Origin: Solitalea canadensis DSM 3403 | Lineage (GTDB): Bacteria > Bacteroidota > Bacteroidia > Sphingobacteriales > Sphingobacteriaceae | Assembly: GCF_000242635.2 (NCBI RefSeq) | Contig: NC_017770.1 | Span: forward strand, 4,910,669-4,974,668 | Length of the DNA: 64,000 bases | Reading direction: 5' to 3' | Shown here: positions 1,777-32,235 of the stretch, in pieces | How positions within the stretch are numbered: position 1 is the stretch's first letter | Layout: every line of letters begins with the position of its first letter | Notes under the pieces: generated by a model | What the model was told of the DNA's origin: nothing | What the model saw: the letters and a program-made list of their open reading frames with translations, nothing else | Database searches by the model: none | Program-made: the position numbers and the translations under genes

Positions 1777-1814
1777 AAAATTCTATCGGTTTAGGGTAAA
1801 AATATCAATATTAG

Positions 1815-2112
1815 TTCATAGTTCATAGATCATGGATCATGGATTTGGTTGATAGTCCATAGTCAATAGTCAATAGTCAATAGTCCATAGTCCATGGTTT
1901 CTTGTATAATTGAAATAAAGGTTGAATAAAAAATATGCAAAGGCTCCTGGTTCATGACTGTCGACTCAAGACTGTTAACACGGTTTCTTGTAAAATTGAA
2001 ATAAAGGTTGATTAAAAATTATGCAAAGACTCCAGGCTCATGACTCAAGACTGTCTACTATGGACCATGGTCCAATTTCCCCCCATGATCTATGAACTAT
2101 GATCCATGAACT
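1815..2112. repeat. Compound intergenic repeat cluster (CCATAGTC and GACTCAAGACT families)
   Basis: This gap between the aldehyde dehydrogenase and the phosphatase holds no gene. From 1815 to 1895 it is a near-tandem run of 9-10 bp units of the type CATAGTC/CATGGATC. From 2058 to 2112 the same family returns in the opposite sense (ATGGACCATGG, CTATGAACTATG), so the two ends can pair. Between them lie two copies of an approximately 75-80 bp unit carrying GACTCAAGACT. There is no spacer/repeat regularity of a CRISPR kind. Confidence 0.75.
1896..2054. repeat. Tandem duplication of a 75-80 bp unit
   Basis: Copy 1 (1896-1975) and copy 2 (1982-2054) both begin GGTTTCTTGTA, continue ATTGAAATAAAGGTTGA, then ATGCAAAG.CTCC, and end CTCAAGACTGT. 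By eye they agree at most positions, with a few substitutions and a short deletion in copy 2. The unit ends in the GACTCAAGACT motif found elsewhere in the window. Confidence 0.75.
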
Positions 2113-10231: not shown

Positions 10232-10957
10232 ATGAGTACCAACATCTCAGTACAAACCGCACAAAATGTTTACCTCGACTATGAATTAGCGAGTGTTGGA
10301 GACCGAATATTGTCAACCTTAATTGATTGGCTGATCATTGTAGTTTATTTTCTGTTTTGGGTTGTTGTTTTTTCAACGATTAGTCAGGAGCCTGGTTTTG
10401 CATTTTTATCACTGCTATCATTACCGGTTCTGTTCTATCATTTATTGATGGAAATTTTCTTCAATGGACAGTCAATTGGTAAGCGGGCAATGAAAATCCA
10501 AGTGGTTAAACTAGATGGAAGCACCCCTTCAATTGGAGATTATTTGCTGCGTTGGTTATTAAGAATTATCGATATCAGTACTTTTTATGGTGTAATAGGC
10601 TTGGTTACCATTGTTGCAAATGGAAAAGGTCAGCGAATTGGTGACCTTGCTGCCGGAACCACGGTAGTTAAGTTAAATAGTAATAAAGATTATCACGACA
10701 TCCCGGTTACGCGTATTGATCCAAGTTATAAAGTTAATTTCCCAGAGGTTACTTTGTTAAATGATGCAGATATCAACCTTATTAAGAAGATCATTAATCG
10801 AAGTTTAAAAGCAAATAGAGAAGATATGCTTGGCCCTGTTGCCAATAAAGTGAAAGAGATTACAGGGGTTCAATCACCTTTGAGTGATTATGTTTTCCTA
10901 CAAATCGTGATTAGCGATTATAATCATTTGGCAGGTATTACAGAATCGGTTGGATAG
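10232..10957 (+). CDS. RDD family membrane protein
   Basis: A 241-residue protein with the RDD domain: the family's Arg-Asp positions appear as VGDRILSTLIDW near residue 22 and again as GQRIGDLAAGTTVV after the third hydrophobic segment. Three membrane segments occupy the first 140 residues; the C-terminal 90 residues are soluble and helical. RDD proteins are implicated in ion or solute transport in some bacteria but mostly lack a known role. Divergent from the SpoIIM-like gene, it completes the cluster. Ten bases after its stop the first GACTCAAGACT-type repeat arm begins. Confidence 0.87.
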   Translation: MSTNISVQTAQNVYLDYELASVGDRILSTLIDWLIIVVYFLFWVVVFSTISQEPGFAFLSLLSLPVLFYHLLMEIFFNGQSIGKRAMKIQVVKLDGSTPSIGDYLLRWLLRIIDISTFYGVIGLVTIVANGKGQRIGDLAAGTTVVKLNSNKDYHDIPVTRIDPSYKVNFPEVTLLNDADINLIKKIINRSLKANREDMLGPVANKVKEITGVQSPLSDYVFLQIVISDYNHLAGITESVG

Positions 10958-10968
10958 TTTTTTAGTAC

Positions 10969-11002
10969 AGAGTCCAGAGTGCTGAGTCTTCACTTTACAC
11001 TC
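10969..11002. repeat. GACTCAAGACT-family repeat, left arm upstream of the S23 gene
   Basis: Reads AGAGTCCAGAGTGCTGAGTC followed by TTCACTTTACACTCGG. It is in inverted orientation relative to the copies at 11424-11490. It also matches the family at 30561-30592 (AGTCTTGAGTC). Confidence 0.65.
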
Positions 11003-11017
11003 GGTGTTGAATTTTCG

Positions 11018-11025
11018 TATGTTTG
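11018..11025 (+). promoter_or_regulatory. -7 promoter box (TATGTTTG) for the four-helix-bundle gene
   Basis: Exact TAnnTTTG match 26 bp upstream of the ATG at 11052. A TTTA at 10994-10997, 20 bp upstream, is a one-mismatch -33 element that lies within the left repeat. Confidence 0.5.
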
Positions 11026-11051
11026 GGATATTTATACTCTCAAAATCTACC

Positions 11052-11414
11052 ATGGGTACGTTCAGACAACTGCTTGTTTATAAGAAAGGCTTTGAATTAG
11101 CACAAGAAATTTATAGCATAACTAAAAATTTTCCTAAAGAAGAGTTATACAGCCTAACGGATCAGATCAGAAGAAGTTCTCGATCTGTTTGTGCGAATAT
11201 TGGGGAAGGTTATAGGAAAAGAAAATATCCAAAACATTTTATTTCTAAATTATCCGATTCTGATATGGAAAATTCAGAAACCCAGGTTTGGCTTGATTTC
11301 GCATTAGCAAACCATTACATTTCTCAACAGATATATTTAGAACTCGATAATAAAGCGGACGAAATCGCTCGTTTGCTAAATTATATGATGAATAATGTCG
11401 AAAAGTTTCAATAA
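11052..11414 (+). CDS. Four-helix-bundle protein (S23 / 23S rRNA intervening-sequence family)
   Basis: A 120-residue helical protein of the S23/bAvd-like family. It begins FRQLLVYKKGFELAQEIY and has the family hallmark SLTDQIRRSSRSVCANIGEGYRK at about residues 34-56. The rest predicts as two more long helices. The ATG at 11052 was chosen over the in-frame ATG at 11004 because the family starts here and the upstream codons read repeat DNA. Relatives are encoded in intervening sequences of 23S rRNA genes (Leptospira, Coxiella) or act as accessory proteins of diversity-generating retroelements, but many occur alone. This gene is flanked by inverted repeats, and its TAA stop overlaps the ATG of tag (TAATG). 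Confidence 0.88.
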   Translation: MGTFRQLLVYKKGFELAQEIYSITKNFPKEELYSLTDQIRRSSRSVCANIGEGYRKRKYPKHFISKLSDSDMENSETQVWLDFALANHYISQQIYLELDNKADEIARLLNYMMNNVEKFQ

Positions 11415-12040
11415 TGGAAAAAAGACTCAAAACTCAAGACTCAGAACTCGAGACTAAAAAAAACGGACTCAAAGCTCAAGACTCAGAACTAACAAGATGT
11501 GCCTGGTGCGGTACAGATCCTATTTATCAGAAATACCATGATGAAGAATGGGGTAAGGAAGTAAGGGATGATAAAACAATGTTTGAATTCTTGATTCTTG
11601 AAGGAGCTCAGGCAGGTTTAAGCTGGATAACAATTTTGAGGAGAAGAGATAACTATCGAAAAGCATTTGCCAATTTTGATGTTAAAAAAGTAGCCGCTTT
11701 TACAGAGAAAGATGTTGAGCGATTGATGCAGGATGAGGGAATTATAAGAAACCGACTCAAAATTAATGCAGCAGTAACCAATGCAAAGCTTTTTATTGAT
11801 ATTCAGAAAGAATTTGGCAGCTTTTGCGATTATATCTGGGGTTTTGTTCCGGAAGGAAAACCTATCATAAATAACAGAGCATCAACTAAAGAGGTGCCTG
11901 CCCGTACTGAAATTTCAGATGCCATAAGTAAAGACATGAAAAAAAGAGGATTTAAGTTCTTTGGAACCACAATCTGTTATGCACATATGCAAGCTACAGG
12001 TATGGTAAACGATCATACCAATGATTGTTTTGCTAAATAA
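11414..12040 (+). CDS. tag: DNA-3-methyladenine glycosylase I with a repeat-derived N-terminal extension
   Basis: Base-excision-repair glycosylase removing 3-methyladenine. The zinc-snap residues are all present: Cys in RCAWCG, His in YHDEEWG, and the C-terminal His and Cys in NDHTNDCF. The family normally begins one or two residues before RCAWCG. Here the only in-frame ATG lies 27 codons earlier, and the extension (KTQDSELETKK, KAQDSEL) is encoded by two 25-bp direct repeats 42 bp, that is 14 codons, apart. The start codon overlaps the stop of the four-helix-bundle gene, so translation is probably coupled to it. The extension is likely disordered and non-catalytic. The enzyme core is intact. 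Confidence 0.92.
   Translation: MEKRLKTQDSELETKKNGLKAQDSELTRCAWCGTDPIYQKYHDEEWGKEVRDDKTMFEFLILEGAQAGLSWITILRRRDNYRKAFANFDVKKVAAFTEKDVERLMQDEGIIRNRLKINAAVTNAKLFIDIQKEFGSFCDYIWGFVPEGKPIINNRASTKEVPARTEISDAISKDMKKRGFKFFGTTICYAHMQATGMVNDHTNDCFAK
11424..11490. repeat. GACTCAAGACT-family direct repeats inside the 5' end of tag
   Basis: Two 25-bp copies, 11424-11448 and 11466-11490, of GACTCAAA.CTCAAGACT plus CAGAACT. They differ at one base and are spaced 42 bp apart, so they keep the tag reading frame. They are inverted relative to the arm at 10969-11002. Confidence 0.85.
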
Positions 12041-30560: not shown

Positions 30561-30776
30561 TTAGTCTTGAGTCTTTAGTTCTGAGTCTTGAATCCCTTTT
30601 TAGCCTAAGATTTTTACTTAAAAGTATGAGTTTGGATCCACAAAGTCTGATCTAAAATTCAAAGTGTACGAACTTAGAACTCCTAAGTTTCCTCTTGTCA
30701 ATATTCAAGACTAAACACTCTCGACTCAAGACTGAATACTCTCGACTCTTAACTCAAGACTTCAGACTCCGGACTA
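30561..30776. repeat. GACTCAAGACT-family repeat pair between convergent genes
   Basis: The left arm at 30561-30592 (TTAGTCTTGAGTCTTTAG...) is complementary to a longer right block at 30704-30776 with repeated TCAAGACT and CTCGACTCAAGACTGAA units. The roughly 110 bp between them have no gene. The right block overlaps the last codons and stop of the flippase gene. Confidence 0.8.
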
Positions 30777-32235
30777 AAAACTTATCAATTAATTCGTTCA
30801 TTTCAGGAGATAATTTAAGCCAGTAAATTGCTCCAACATAAAGAATTGTTATTAATGTTGAACGAACAATAATATCTGCGATGAAATTAGGTAAGGCAGG
30901 TAGTAAGTAGTTTAGGGCAAGCACAGCCATGCCAATAATAAGAATAGCCAGGTTTTTCCAGCTGTAGGGTTGTAAGCCAAATTTTACCCAAACAAAAATA
31001 TACCTGAATAAATTAAACAAGAATGTTCCCGATGCTGCAGCAATTGCAGCCCCGGCTAATCCGTAGCGTGGAATAAATAGATAATTGGCGCCAATTATAA
31101 CTCCGATAAGTGCTACAAAGAAATAGGTATCAAACCTGAAGTATTTTGATGTGGCGAGTATAACCCCATTTACCCCGGTAACCATATCAAATAAGCTCCC
31201 TAGGCCCATAAATAAAATCACATATTTGCCTGCTGCATATTGTGGAGGTAATAAATGAAAAACATTGTTAATGTTAGCCCAAATACCAATAAATAATAAA
31301 AGTCCTATCAGTAATTGGTTGATACAGCTTTTACGGTAAACGGATAATATACCGGCCATGTCATTGTCTTTCCATTTATCAGCTAAAACAGTACCTGCAA
31401 TTCGGTACATTACACGTGCCGGCATAGCAATTACCGTTGCAAAATACACAGTAATGCCGTATGTTCCAGTTTCGCTTAAACCCAGCAAATTACCAATCAT
31501 GATTTTATCAATGTATTGAATGATCATGGTAGTAAAACCACTAATTACTGCAAAAGAACTGAAGCTTACCATTCCTTTTACCAATCCCTTATCAGGAAAG
31601 TTGAGGTCTGGAGTAAAATTAAGCTGTTTGTCTCTCGCCAGTTTTATGGTTAAAATGAGCGTAGGCAGCATATTGGCAATTAGCCAGATGTAGATGAAAT
31701 GGTTAAAGTCAACGGTAAATACGATTAGTAAAACCATTGAAAGTGCAACAAAAAATTTTTGATAAAATTCTCTTAGTGCTGTTCCTGTAACGGTATCGTA
31801 TAAAGCTCTGTTATAGTTGTCTAAAACGCCAAAAAACAAAAGAAAAAAGGCTAATCCCCAAAGTGTTATTCCATAGTTAGAGAATATAATTGAATAGCTT
31901 TCGCTAGTACCCCAGAAAAAATTGCCGAATAAAGTAATGCCGATTAGGCAAACAGAAAAACCAACCAATGAAACAGCACTGGAAAGGAATAAGAATCCGT
32001 GATGATTTTTATGGTCACTTCTGAAATAAGGAAAAAAGCGAACCGAAGCTGCCTGAAAGCCTAAACTGGCTACCTGAACAATAATGGCCGAATAAGAAAG
32101 CAATAGTTCAAGAATACCATTCTCTTCGGTCGATAAACAGCGAGGTCGTAGGAAAATTGTTGTTACAAATCCAACGACCACGCCTAAATATGAATAAATA
32201 GTGCCTTTTATTGTTTGTTTCTGGATTATTCCCAT
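30754..32235 (-). CDS. Polysaccharide flippase (Wzx-like, MOP superfamily)
   Basis: A 493-residue polytopic membrane protein with about 12-14 hydrophobic segments, starting KGTIYSYLGVVVGFVTTIFLRPRCLS. It has the spacing of oligosaccharide flippases (Wzx/RfbX), which move lipid-linked O-units across the inner membrane. The last codons (VRSLKS and the TGA stop) are encoded by the terminal GACTCAAGACT repeat, so the C-terminus appears to have been set by repeat DNA. Neighbouring glycosyltransferase, acetyltransferase and methyltransferase genes support a surface-polysaccharide role. Confidence 0.88.
   Translation of the reverse strand: MGIIQKQTIKGTIYSYLGVVVGFVTTIFLRPRCLSTEENGILELLLSYSAIIVQVASLGFQAASVRFFPYFRSDHKNHHGFLFLSSAVSLVGFSVCLIGITLFGNFFWGTSESYSIIFSNYGITLWGLAFFLLFFGVLDNYNRALYDTVTGTALREFYQKFFVALSMVLLIVFTVDFNHFIYIWLIANMLPTLILTIKLARDKQLNFTPDLNFPDKGLVKGMVSFSSFAVISGFTTMIIQYIDKIMIGNLLGLSETGTYGITVYFATVIAMPARVMYRIAGTVLADKWKDNDMAGILSVYRKSCINQLLIGLLLFIGIWANINNVFHLLPPQYAAGKYVILFMGLGSLFDMVTGVNGVILATSKYFRFDTYFFVALIGVIIGANYLFIPRYGLAGAAIAAASGTFLFNLFRYIFVWVKFGLQPYSWKNLAILIIGMAVLALNYLLPALPNFIADIIVRSTLITILYVGAIYWLKLSPEMNELIDKFLVRSLKS

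Follow-up and report, generated by a model that had tools for sequence, protein, structure and literature searches.

An S23 gene between inverted heptamer arrays in Solitalea canadensis: a candidate small mobile unit

Ralph and McClelland are said to have described S23 in the intervening sequences (IVSs) of rRNA in 1993. In Solitalea canadensis DSM 3403, an S23 gene lies between two protein genes and is flanked by repeats, which raises the question of what kind of unit it belongs to and whether that unit moves. The locus is found in a 64,000-nucleotide stretch of DNA, referred to here as the window. A sequence-only reading of the window had proposed that the locus may be a free-standing relative of rRNA IVSs, in which the S23 protein is the partner of a dispersed repeat family, comparable to RAYT/REP systems. 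Here, this idea is examined through the anatomy of the locus, a survey of S23 genes in other genomes, and the distribution of their repeats.

Anatomy of the window locus

The S23 gene (23S rRNA intervening-sequence-protein gene, four-helix bundle) occupies positions 11052..11414 on the + strand, as do all features of this locus. Its left neighbour is an RDD-family gene (10232..10957, an open reading frame matching PF06271 at 68.9 bits, stop at 10955-10957), and its right neighbour is tag (11414..12040), encoding 3-methyladenine DNA glycosylase (PF03352, 279.4 bits). The left arm (10958..11008) is made of G-rich heptamers that read inward (GAGTCCA GAGTGCT GAGTCTT at 10970-10990). The right arm consists of two blocks, GACTCAAAACTCAAGACTCAGAACTCGAGACT (11424..11455) and GGACTCAAAGCTCAAGACTCAGAACT (11465..11490, within the tag reading frame), both of which take part in direct repeat D1. 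The first block pairs with the left arm in inverted pair I1 (10958-10990 / 11429-11461, 33 nt, 76% complementary) and the second in I2 (10978-11008 / 11460-11490, 31 nt, 71% complementary). The proposed bracketing of the gene by inverted repeats was confirmed, as the arm score, which compares the left flank with the reverse-complemented right flank, is 17 and was reached by 0 of 2000 dinucleotide shuffles (largest 15). Both arms are arrays of heptamers, which resemble GAGTCTT in the left arm and GACTCAA/GACTCAG in the right; the 7-nt self-match is 19/28 in the left arm (reached by 0/2000 shuffles) and 20/28 in the right arm (7/2000).

The boundaries required one correction. The left end had been placed at 10969, 11 bp past the RDD stop, whereas the similarity of the left arm starts directly after that stop, at 10958. 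The right end does lie inside the start of tag, as had been suggested. The S23 stop codon TAA (11412-11414) and the ATG of tag (11414-11416) share one letter in the sequence TAATG, which places the right arm within the tag reading frame; tag residues ~4 to 26 are translated right-arm heptamers, and the tag domain starts only at residue 31. The −7 box assigned to the S23 gene, TATGTTTG at 11018..11025, is at chance level, with 67 occurrences of TANNTTTG in the window against 88.75 expected, and the promoter argument fails. A prediction of the RNA fold of the arms had been proposed as a check; the RNA of the unit folds slightly better than shuffles (z −2.14; 2/100 shuffles). No recombinase or nuclease of known type was found in the window unit.

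The S23 protein matches PF05635 at 117.6 bits (3.6e-34) and TIGR02436 (4.8e-32), and has solved relatives in 2rld and 2gsc; by the title of its paper, the 2gsc structure reportedly consists of five four-helix bundles. To our knowledge, S23 has no catalytic motif. S23 is under purifying selection, with dN/dS of 0.061/0.717, 0.019/0.912 and 0.312/2.23 in three pairs, while three further pairs yielded no dS. The protein also matches bAvd (PF22296, 45.4 bits, 1.3e-11) and, at 32.1 bits and under that profile's cut-off, DivGenRetAVD. S23 is homologous to Avd, the four-helix-bundle protein of diversity-generating retroelements, and an earlier study likewise states that PF05635 resembles Avd (PMC10053308).

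Arms of S23 genes within and beyond the lineage

PF05635 matches five genes in the genome of S. canadensis (G000, a single contig of 5.2 Mb), and inverted heptamer-like arrays were found by reading at 5/5 of them. Each S23 sits in the gap between two genes, with arm scores of 15 to 23, and the heptamers all differ: GACTCAA in the window, and GTTACGG, ATGGACT, GTTAGCC and GTTAATG elsewhere, the GTTAGCC arrays adjoining a broken S23. The prediction that S23 genes are flanked by repeats thus stands for the arrangement, and not for the repeat word, as GACTCAAGACT itself is not common to the five. Since each S23 lineage has its own heptamer, a search of relatives for GACTCAAGACT would fail even though the idea holds.

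Among the matches listed, S23 occurs in 34 of 41 genomes of relatives (G000 included), with up to 12 per genome. The 95 loci scored omit most of the weaker-scoring listed matches, as well as L060 and L084, which were incomplete. Their own pairs of flanks have a median score of 17, compared with 10 for a mismatched control of 285 pairs taken from different loci (95th percentile 13), 10 for the direct orientation (95th percentile 17) and 9 for shuffled left flanks; 70/95 loci score above 13. A period of seven (at least 20/28 self-matches at lag 7) is found in 36 left and 23 right flanks of the 95, and in none of the shuffles. Lag 14 follows with 21 left and 12 right flanks, then lag 8 with 6 and 4, and the rest of lags 3 to 15 have at most one. 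These comparisons show that the two arms of one S23 locus match each other in a locus-specific manner.

The same pattern extends to distant groups. From 575 S23 loci in GTDB genomes the best 80 were taken, 72 of which were usable. Own pairs again have a median of 17, and mismatched pairs and distal flanks (66 loci) each have a median of 10; the inverted score exceeds 17, the 95th percentile of mismatched pairs, in 30/72 loci and in 0 distal pairs, with 11/72 also exceeding it in the direct orientation. Lag 7 is found in 39/72 loci, lag 8 in 4 and lag 12 in 1, with none at the remaining lags from 4 to 11. As a control, tag genes were scored at 24 of 30 loci (L149 and L150 were left out as adjacent to S23, and four as short), and no own pair above 13 was found among these 24, with 2/24 left flanks reaching lag 7. 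In twelve other genomes, which by their contig names include Proteobacteria, a cyanobacterium, Clostridia, Opitutae, Fibrobacter, Planctomycetaceae, Lentisphaerota, Ignavibacteriae, Gracilibacteria and an archaeon, arms of at least 15 are present in 18 of 29 usable loci (best matches, 30 retrieved) and in 1/145 mismatched pairs; nine of these loci duplicate, by their arms, loci of the 80-locus GTDB set, and contamination of metagenome-assembled genomes (MAGs) is possible. In the class of G049, labelled Betaproteobacteria and belonging to Gammaproteobacteria in GTDB, S23 matches occur in 77/369 genomes (71 above cut-off), and arms in 24/29 scored best-matching loci against 10/145 mismatched pairs. 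Four short 23S rRNA motifs were absent from all 29 of these loci and, among the other retrieved loci, were present only in L184. Heptamer arms also accompany S23 loci on cyanobacterial plasmids (plain in L178, L180 and L182), an S23 locus on a Gemmatirosa plasmid, and one S23 inside a 23S rRNA gene of Azospirillum. Pooled without the twelve-genome and G049-class sets, 121/180 loci have arms at a score of 15, compared with 17/540 mismatched pairs; the other 59/180 have none at this threshold. Inverted heptamer arms therefore surround most scored S23 genes, across phyla.

The arms share a polarity. In the 121 armed loci the G-C skew of the left arm is positive in 112, negative in 5 and zero in 4, and the ratio is 17:1 in the twelve-genome set and 22:1 in the G049 class. 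Given the symmetry of an inverted repeat, the G-rich strand is the one read inward, from whichever side. The choice of heptamer, in turn, follows the S23 protein. Among pairs of loci without blastp similarity between neighbouring frames (flanks of up to ~1.5 kb a side), the fraction with matching arms is 0.003-0.010 below 40% S23 identity, 0.034 at 40-50%, 0.095 at 50-60% and 0.556 at 60-75%, the last bin holding 45 pairs with one locus counted twice (L088/L223). S23 identity and arm similarity are correlated (Mantel r 0.204; 0/999 permutations), the pairs behind this correlation representing few lineages and not independent events. One S23 clade with GAGATTT/GAGATAT arms spans Mucilaginibacter, Daejeonella, Pedobacter and Sphingobacterium records, with some members at a common place and others elsewhere. 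S23 lineages thus tend to have a particular heptamer, even at different places.

Several further properties of the arms were considered and rejected. Concerted evolution of the two arms, apparent in 35/49 pairs, was a biased result, as these arms had been preselected for mutual match; in a fair test, similarity within a locus exceeded that between species in 2/9 pairs at S23 identities of at least 70%, in 20/40 at 60-70% and in 95/150 at 50-60%, which is unsupportive. Once composition is taken into account, the sign of selection for stop codons in the left arm is weak (0.103 per nt against 0.082 in shuffles; 0.054 against 0.044 in the right arm). As read from the sequence, T runs are placed beyond the left arm and A runs beyond the right one, an order that does not suit intrinsic terminators.

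Dispersed arrays and occupied gaps

Arrays of the same kind also occur without an S23 gene. In the window, arrays of the TAGTTCA/TAGTCCA type at 1811..1899 (1811-1845 and 1848-1899, + strand), detected by a de novo lag-7 scan, use the heptamer of the S23 at 780808-781122 of the same genome (match to the arms of L003), and inverted GACTCAA arrays lie between convergent genes at 30563..30786 (no strand assigned; L037). S23-less GACTCAA arrays outnumber S23-bearing ones in G000, and 9 of 12 examined lie between convergent genes. Some of them hold a second, nested heptamer (L045). In a sample of G000 comprising 0.8 Mb at even steps and the window, nine lag-7 arrays were found, and the remaining lags between 4 and 12 gave a single array (lag 5). 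Together, the nine fit the genome's own five S23 loci to a degree reached by 0/5000 draws of five foreign S23 loci; one of them (L294) has no clear match to the genome's own S23 arms, and for several of the nine some foreign S23 locus scores equally or higher. The dispersed repeat partner envisaged for S23 is therefore upheld in that arrays largely share the heptamer of a resident S23, but not as a single GACTCAAGACT family, each S23 lineage having its own heptamer.

Searches for single words extend this observation to other genomes. The doubled heptamers GGGAATM, GAGTTCT and GTGATGG, which came from S23 arms of G299/G128, G188 and G260, respectively, so that matches at those S23 genes are built in, were searched across 30 genomes. 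GGGAATM occurs twice in a row only in G299 (60 matches) and G128 (4), GAGTTCT in G176 (67), G188 (5) and G092 (1), and GTGATGG in G260 (39), G136 (39) and G092 (1). All six genomes with more than one match of a word carry that word at an S23 gene. G176 and G136, from which no word had been chosen, are independent cases, and both have an exact match beside an S23: the word at G176:C2:310116 adjoins an S23, and words at G136:C1:820067-820178 and 820640 bracket the S23 at 820291. G299, G176, G260 and G136 also carry the word dispersed away from their S23 gene, and in G188 all 5/5 matches, and in G128 3/4, are at the S23 gene. With reversed control words, most genomes had 0 matches, the exceptions being G136 (39), G089 (5), G260 (5), G314 (1), G293 (1) and G000 (5), where the reversed word is the genome's own GAGTCTT heptamer. 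TATGGAC, searched as a doubled word with one mismatch permitted in 29 genomes, has 98 matches in G000, 30 and 27 in the congeners G001 and G003, 12 in G016, 11 in G027, 3 in the S23-free congener G002 and at most 2 in the remaining genomes. The reversed word has 198 matches in G023, and the S23 locus L087 of that genome carries this word. In G003, with its 27 matches, no TATGGAC-type S23 is present among the 5 of 7 S23 loci retrieved. Lag-7 arrays number one per 400 kb scanned in the S23-free G002, one in 400 kb of five S23-rich relatives (strict scan) and one in 400 kb of three S23-free relatives, giving no clear relation between array density and S23 number in these small samples. Several of the genomes thus contain dispersed S23-less arrays with the heptamer of an S23 unit, and such arrays largely use heptamers of the same genome's S23 loci.

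Gaps between genes that hold the unit in one genome can be compared with the same gaps in relatives. In Anabaena sp. 90 the order is cas6-arm-S23-arm-cas4, and on two cyanobacterial plasmids S23 separates cas6 from cas4. In Anabaena, the stop of cas6 is within a heptamer, and the annotated start of cas4 is inside the unit, with the right arm in the cas4 reading frame. The corresponding gap in Dolichospermum UHCC 0315A has no S23 and instead a different palindromic repeat, the flanking pieces being 96.5% (114 nt) and 99.6% (237 nt) identical. Similarly, Nostoc edaphicum has nrdB-S23-nrdA, with S23 opposite in direction to both genes, while Calothrix NIES-4105 (85.3% identical) lacks the unit in this gap, annotated as 40 nt long. 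By reading, no heptamer array was found in either S23-less gap, and no target-site duplication was recognised at the cas6-cas4 and nrdB-nrdA sites, where boundaries are blurred by divergence. In the two gaps compared at closest range, the unit is thus absent from a close plasmid relative in each, and units occupy narrow gaps between genes, often inside operons.

At the tag junction, by reading, S23 is present in G000 and G023, broken in G003 and reduced to a C-terminal relic in G001. G002 has no PF05635 match among the matches listed, and its tag N-terminus is still heptamer-like. An S23-less inverted array takes this place in G016, and the junction is short in G013 and G022. Heptamer-like N-termini were also seen in some other tag genes.

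Interpretation of the S23 unit

The window unit shares features with several known systems. As in rRNA IVSs, an S23-family frame is encoded between terminal inverted repeats able to pair in RNA, and heptamers also occur 5' of Coxiella S23p and as arms of the Azospirillum 23S unit; the window unit differs in sitting between RDD and tag, and not inside an rRNA gene, in its lineage-specific heptamer and in the dispersed S23-less arrays. The Coxiella IVS has a 28-bp inverted-repeat stem that is cleaved by RNase III in vitro, and its GACAGAT heptamers vary among strains; that paper also records an older suggestion that the IVS is mobile and that its ORF is required for mobility, and its authors consider that S23p is probably not expressed and that the RNA matters more than the protein (PMC4990558). 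In rRNA genes of the CPR, both S23 ORFs and ORF-less inserts are described (PMC11270868).

STRR is the name for cyanobacterial heptamer repeats. With these and similar simple repeats the S. canadensis arrays share tandem arrangement with a 7-nt period, intergenic position and dispersal in the genome. Comparable heptamers are GGGAATC in Xanthomonas, often in convergent inverted pairs (70 and 75 of them), and GGGGA(C/T)T in Nostoc (PMC4692102), and TAACTGA in Beggiatoaceae (PMC4679880). Here, by contrast, an array shares its word with an S23 gene of the genome that holds it; neither 'S23' nor 'four helix' occurs in the main text of these two papers. The accessible part of another source mentions four-helix-bundle genes, without heptamer repeats (PMC8700078). 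In the open PMC literature, to which our search was confined, no link of non-rRNA S23 genes to heptamer arrays was found.

REP/REPIN and RAYT systems, too, combine short dispersed repeats with a gene flanked by them, and one repeat family both flanks the partner gene and is dispersed in G000. The flanked gene is S23 and not a Y1 transposase, and the repeats are tandem heptamers in contrast to the single REP hairpin of RAYTs. Diversity-generating retroelements share with the unit the homologous Avd family, and differ in their reverse transcriptase, as G000 has no PF00078 match. Finally, 18 S23-family genes are reported at cas loci, frequently accompanied by cas4 or cas6 (PMC3936711), and a figure legend names the 23S rRNA IVP among CRISPR adaptation associations (PMC10910872); S23 likewise lies between these two cas genes on the two cyanobacterial plasmids. 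These two plasmid loci differ in having heptamer arms and S23-less relatives, so that the association can be explained by insertion into a gap of the operon, with no role in CRISPR.

With a probability of roughly 0.6, we regard the window feature as one copy of a small mobile-type unit, composed of an inward-reading G-rich heptamer array, an S23 gene and the same array inverted; we infer its movement from the comparison of genomes. The original proposal of a free-standing IVS relative with a RAYT/REP-like partnership is supported by the arms, the lineage-heptamer link, the dispersed arrays and the empty sites. In the best reading, the unit would be a free-standing form of the rRNA IVS, able to move between genes, whose S23 protein recognises the repeat of its own unit, and the classic IVS would be its rRNA-resident form. 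In a transcript, the two arms may form a long stem that carries the S23 frame in its loop, and a cut of the RNase III type could then remove the unit from rRNA or polycistronic mRNA; a unit that is cut out of the transcript would be tolerated between the genes of an operon. S23 would bind the heptamer of its own arms as RNA or hairpin DNA and promote copying or insertion of whatever the arms bracket, with S23-less arrays as putative non-autonomous derivatives, as REPs are for RAYTs. On its 3' side, the unit may provide the following gene with a start codon and, through an arm poor in stop codons, with a new N-terminus, as at tag in the window and at cas4 in Anabaena.

The arrays could instead arise by slippage in intergenic gaps and serve as landing pads, S23 being moved otherwise and tolerated or captured inside them. 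The excess of S23-less arrays in G000 and the ease with which the number of units in an array changes, Coxiella strains differing in this respect (PMC4990558), are what this explanation expects. It is nevertheless unlikely, as S23 lineage predicts the heptamer at places without common neighbours, the arms within a locus match each other, and no such array was read in the S23-less Calothrix and Dolichospermum gaps. Nor do the S23 gene and its arms readily pass for a vertically inherited, non-mobile device of the operon, autoregulated and acting in RNA processing or translation coupling. The unit does occupy the same junction in two genera, at tag in the congeners G000 and G003 and in G023. The next gene after the 121 units is co-directional in 83, opposite in 21 and undecided in 17, that is, co-directional in 83/104 decided cases, raw counts without a baseline, and in 18/83 the first ATG of the downstream frame is inside the unit, several of these frames also having a later, probably native start. 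The neighbours are functionally varied, though, the unit is missing from the same gap in relatives, and S23 decays in congeners (broken in G003, a C-terminal relic in G001, without a PF05635 match in G002), which makes such a device quite unlikely.

Two further explanations assign the movement to an enzyme acting in trans. Single-strand transposition by a Y1 transposase (IS200/IS605 or RAYT-type) that recognises heptamer hairpins, with S23 as an accessory, would suit the inverted ends and the REP-like dispersal, and Y1_Tnp is present in 24/34 S23-positive and 1/7 S23-free genomes (matches listed; genome size and kinship confound this comparison). G001, with ten listed S23 matches, has no Y1_Tnp, and nine further S23-positive genomes are likewise without it. 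With so uneven a distribution, absent from ten S23-positive genomes, a Y1 transposase was rejected as a required partner, and we consider the model very unlikely. Slightly less credible still is an Avd-like retroelement that moves through an RNA intermediate, with a reverse transcriptase in trans and S23 in the role of Avd. Its appeal lies in the homology of S23 to Avd, seen in the bAvd match and stated in PMC10053308, and in the slightly favourable RNA fold. PF00078 is, however, absent from the S23-rich G000, G001 and G003 (5, 10 and 7 S23 matches listed), while the S23-free G002 has 16 matches, so that a reverse transcriptase was rejected as a present requirement; past transposition via one since lost is still conceivable.

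The preferred reading, that of a mobile-type S23 unit with its own heptamer, has consequences beyond S. canadensis. The occurrence of the arrangement across many bacterial groups suggests a widespread and largely overlooked kind of tiny mobile element. More tentatively, and at somewhat less than even odds, S23s may head a very widespread class of enzyme-less replicators, in which a lineage-specific heptamer array is recognised and any DNA or RNA that it brackets is spread. A single system would then exist in three states, as rRNA IVSs, as free-standing S23 genes between the genes of operons, and as a large part of the intergenic heptamer arrays so far unexplained in cyanobacteria, Bacteroidota and Proteobacteria. 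In the literature, the function of S23 is still called unknown and the origin of heptamer arrays is left open; linking the two provides a testable partner for each. It could also explain the presence of S23 in cas and other operons, which surveys took as functional association, and tag and cas4 would be cases in which a small element has replaced the start of a host protein.

Nested, dispersed and clustered heptamer units

Two heptamer types, both of which accompany S23 genes in Solitalea canadensis, are concentrically nested within one gap of locus L045 (3890-4190), with GACTCAA as the outer and TAGTCCA/TAGTTCA as the inner heptamer. The genome G136 harbors four S23 genes, and a search there for two successive copies of MTAAGGG, the reversed word used as a control in scans for dispersed arrays, returned 39 matches; MTAAGGG is another dispersed heptamer in this genome. 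Among the matches listed, three S23 genes fall inside 3.8 kb in one relative (G033:C2:45151-48915), and pairs lie approximately 1.6 kb apart in other relatives (G006, G014 and G023), as if a single region were gathering units.

Repeats and multi-copy genes in other genomes

Arrays with an 11-nt period are present in G019 (L336-L343) at 25 per Mb (4 in the 160 kb sampled), and this genome yielded no S23 matches. S23 matches are likewise absent from the congener G002, where 16 matches to reverse transcriptase, several of them equal in score, perhaps represent group II introns. In the 1.5 Mb genome G377 (C1), a multi-copy gene with a distant likeness to S23 accounts for 11 weak matches, many of which score identically.

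S23 units within cas operons

On cyanobacterial plasmids, the cas6-cas4 gap of two different type I-D operons (L179 and L180) is the site of S23 units. Where Anabaena sp. 90 carries an S23 unit, the corresponding gap of a Dolichospermum plasmid (L366, 1117-1341) contains a palindromic repeat that is unrelated to it, TAGGTTGGGTT...AACCCAACCTA. Insertions such as those in L179 and L180 may be the source of published lists of CRISPR-associated S23 genes.
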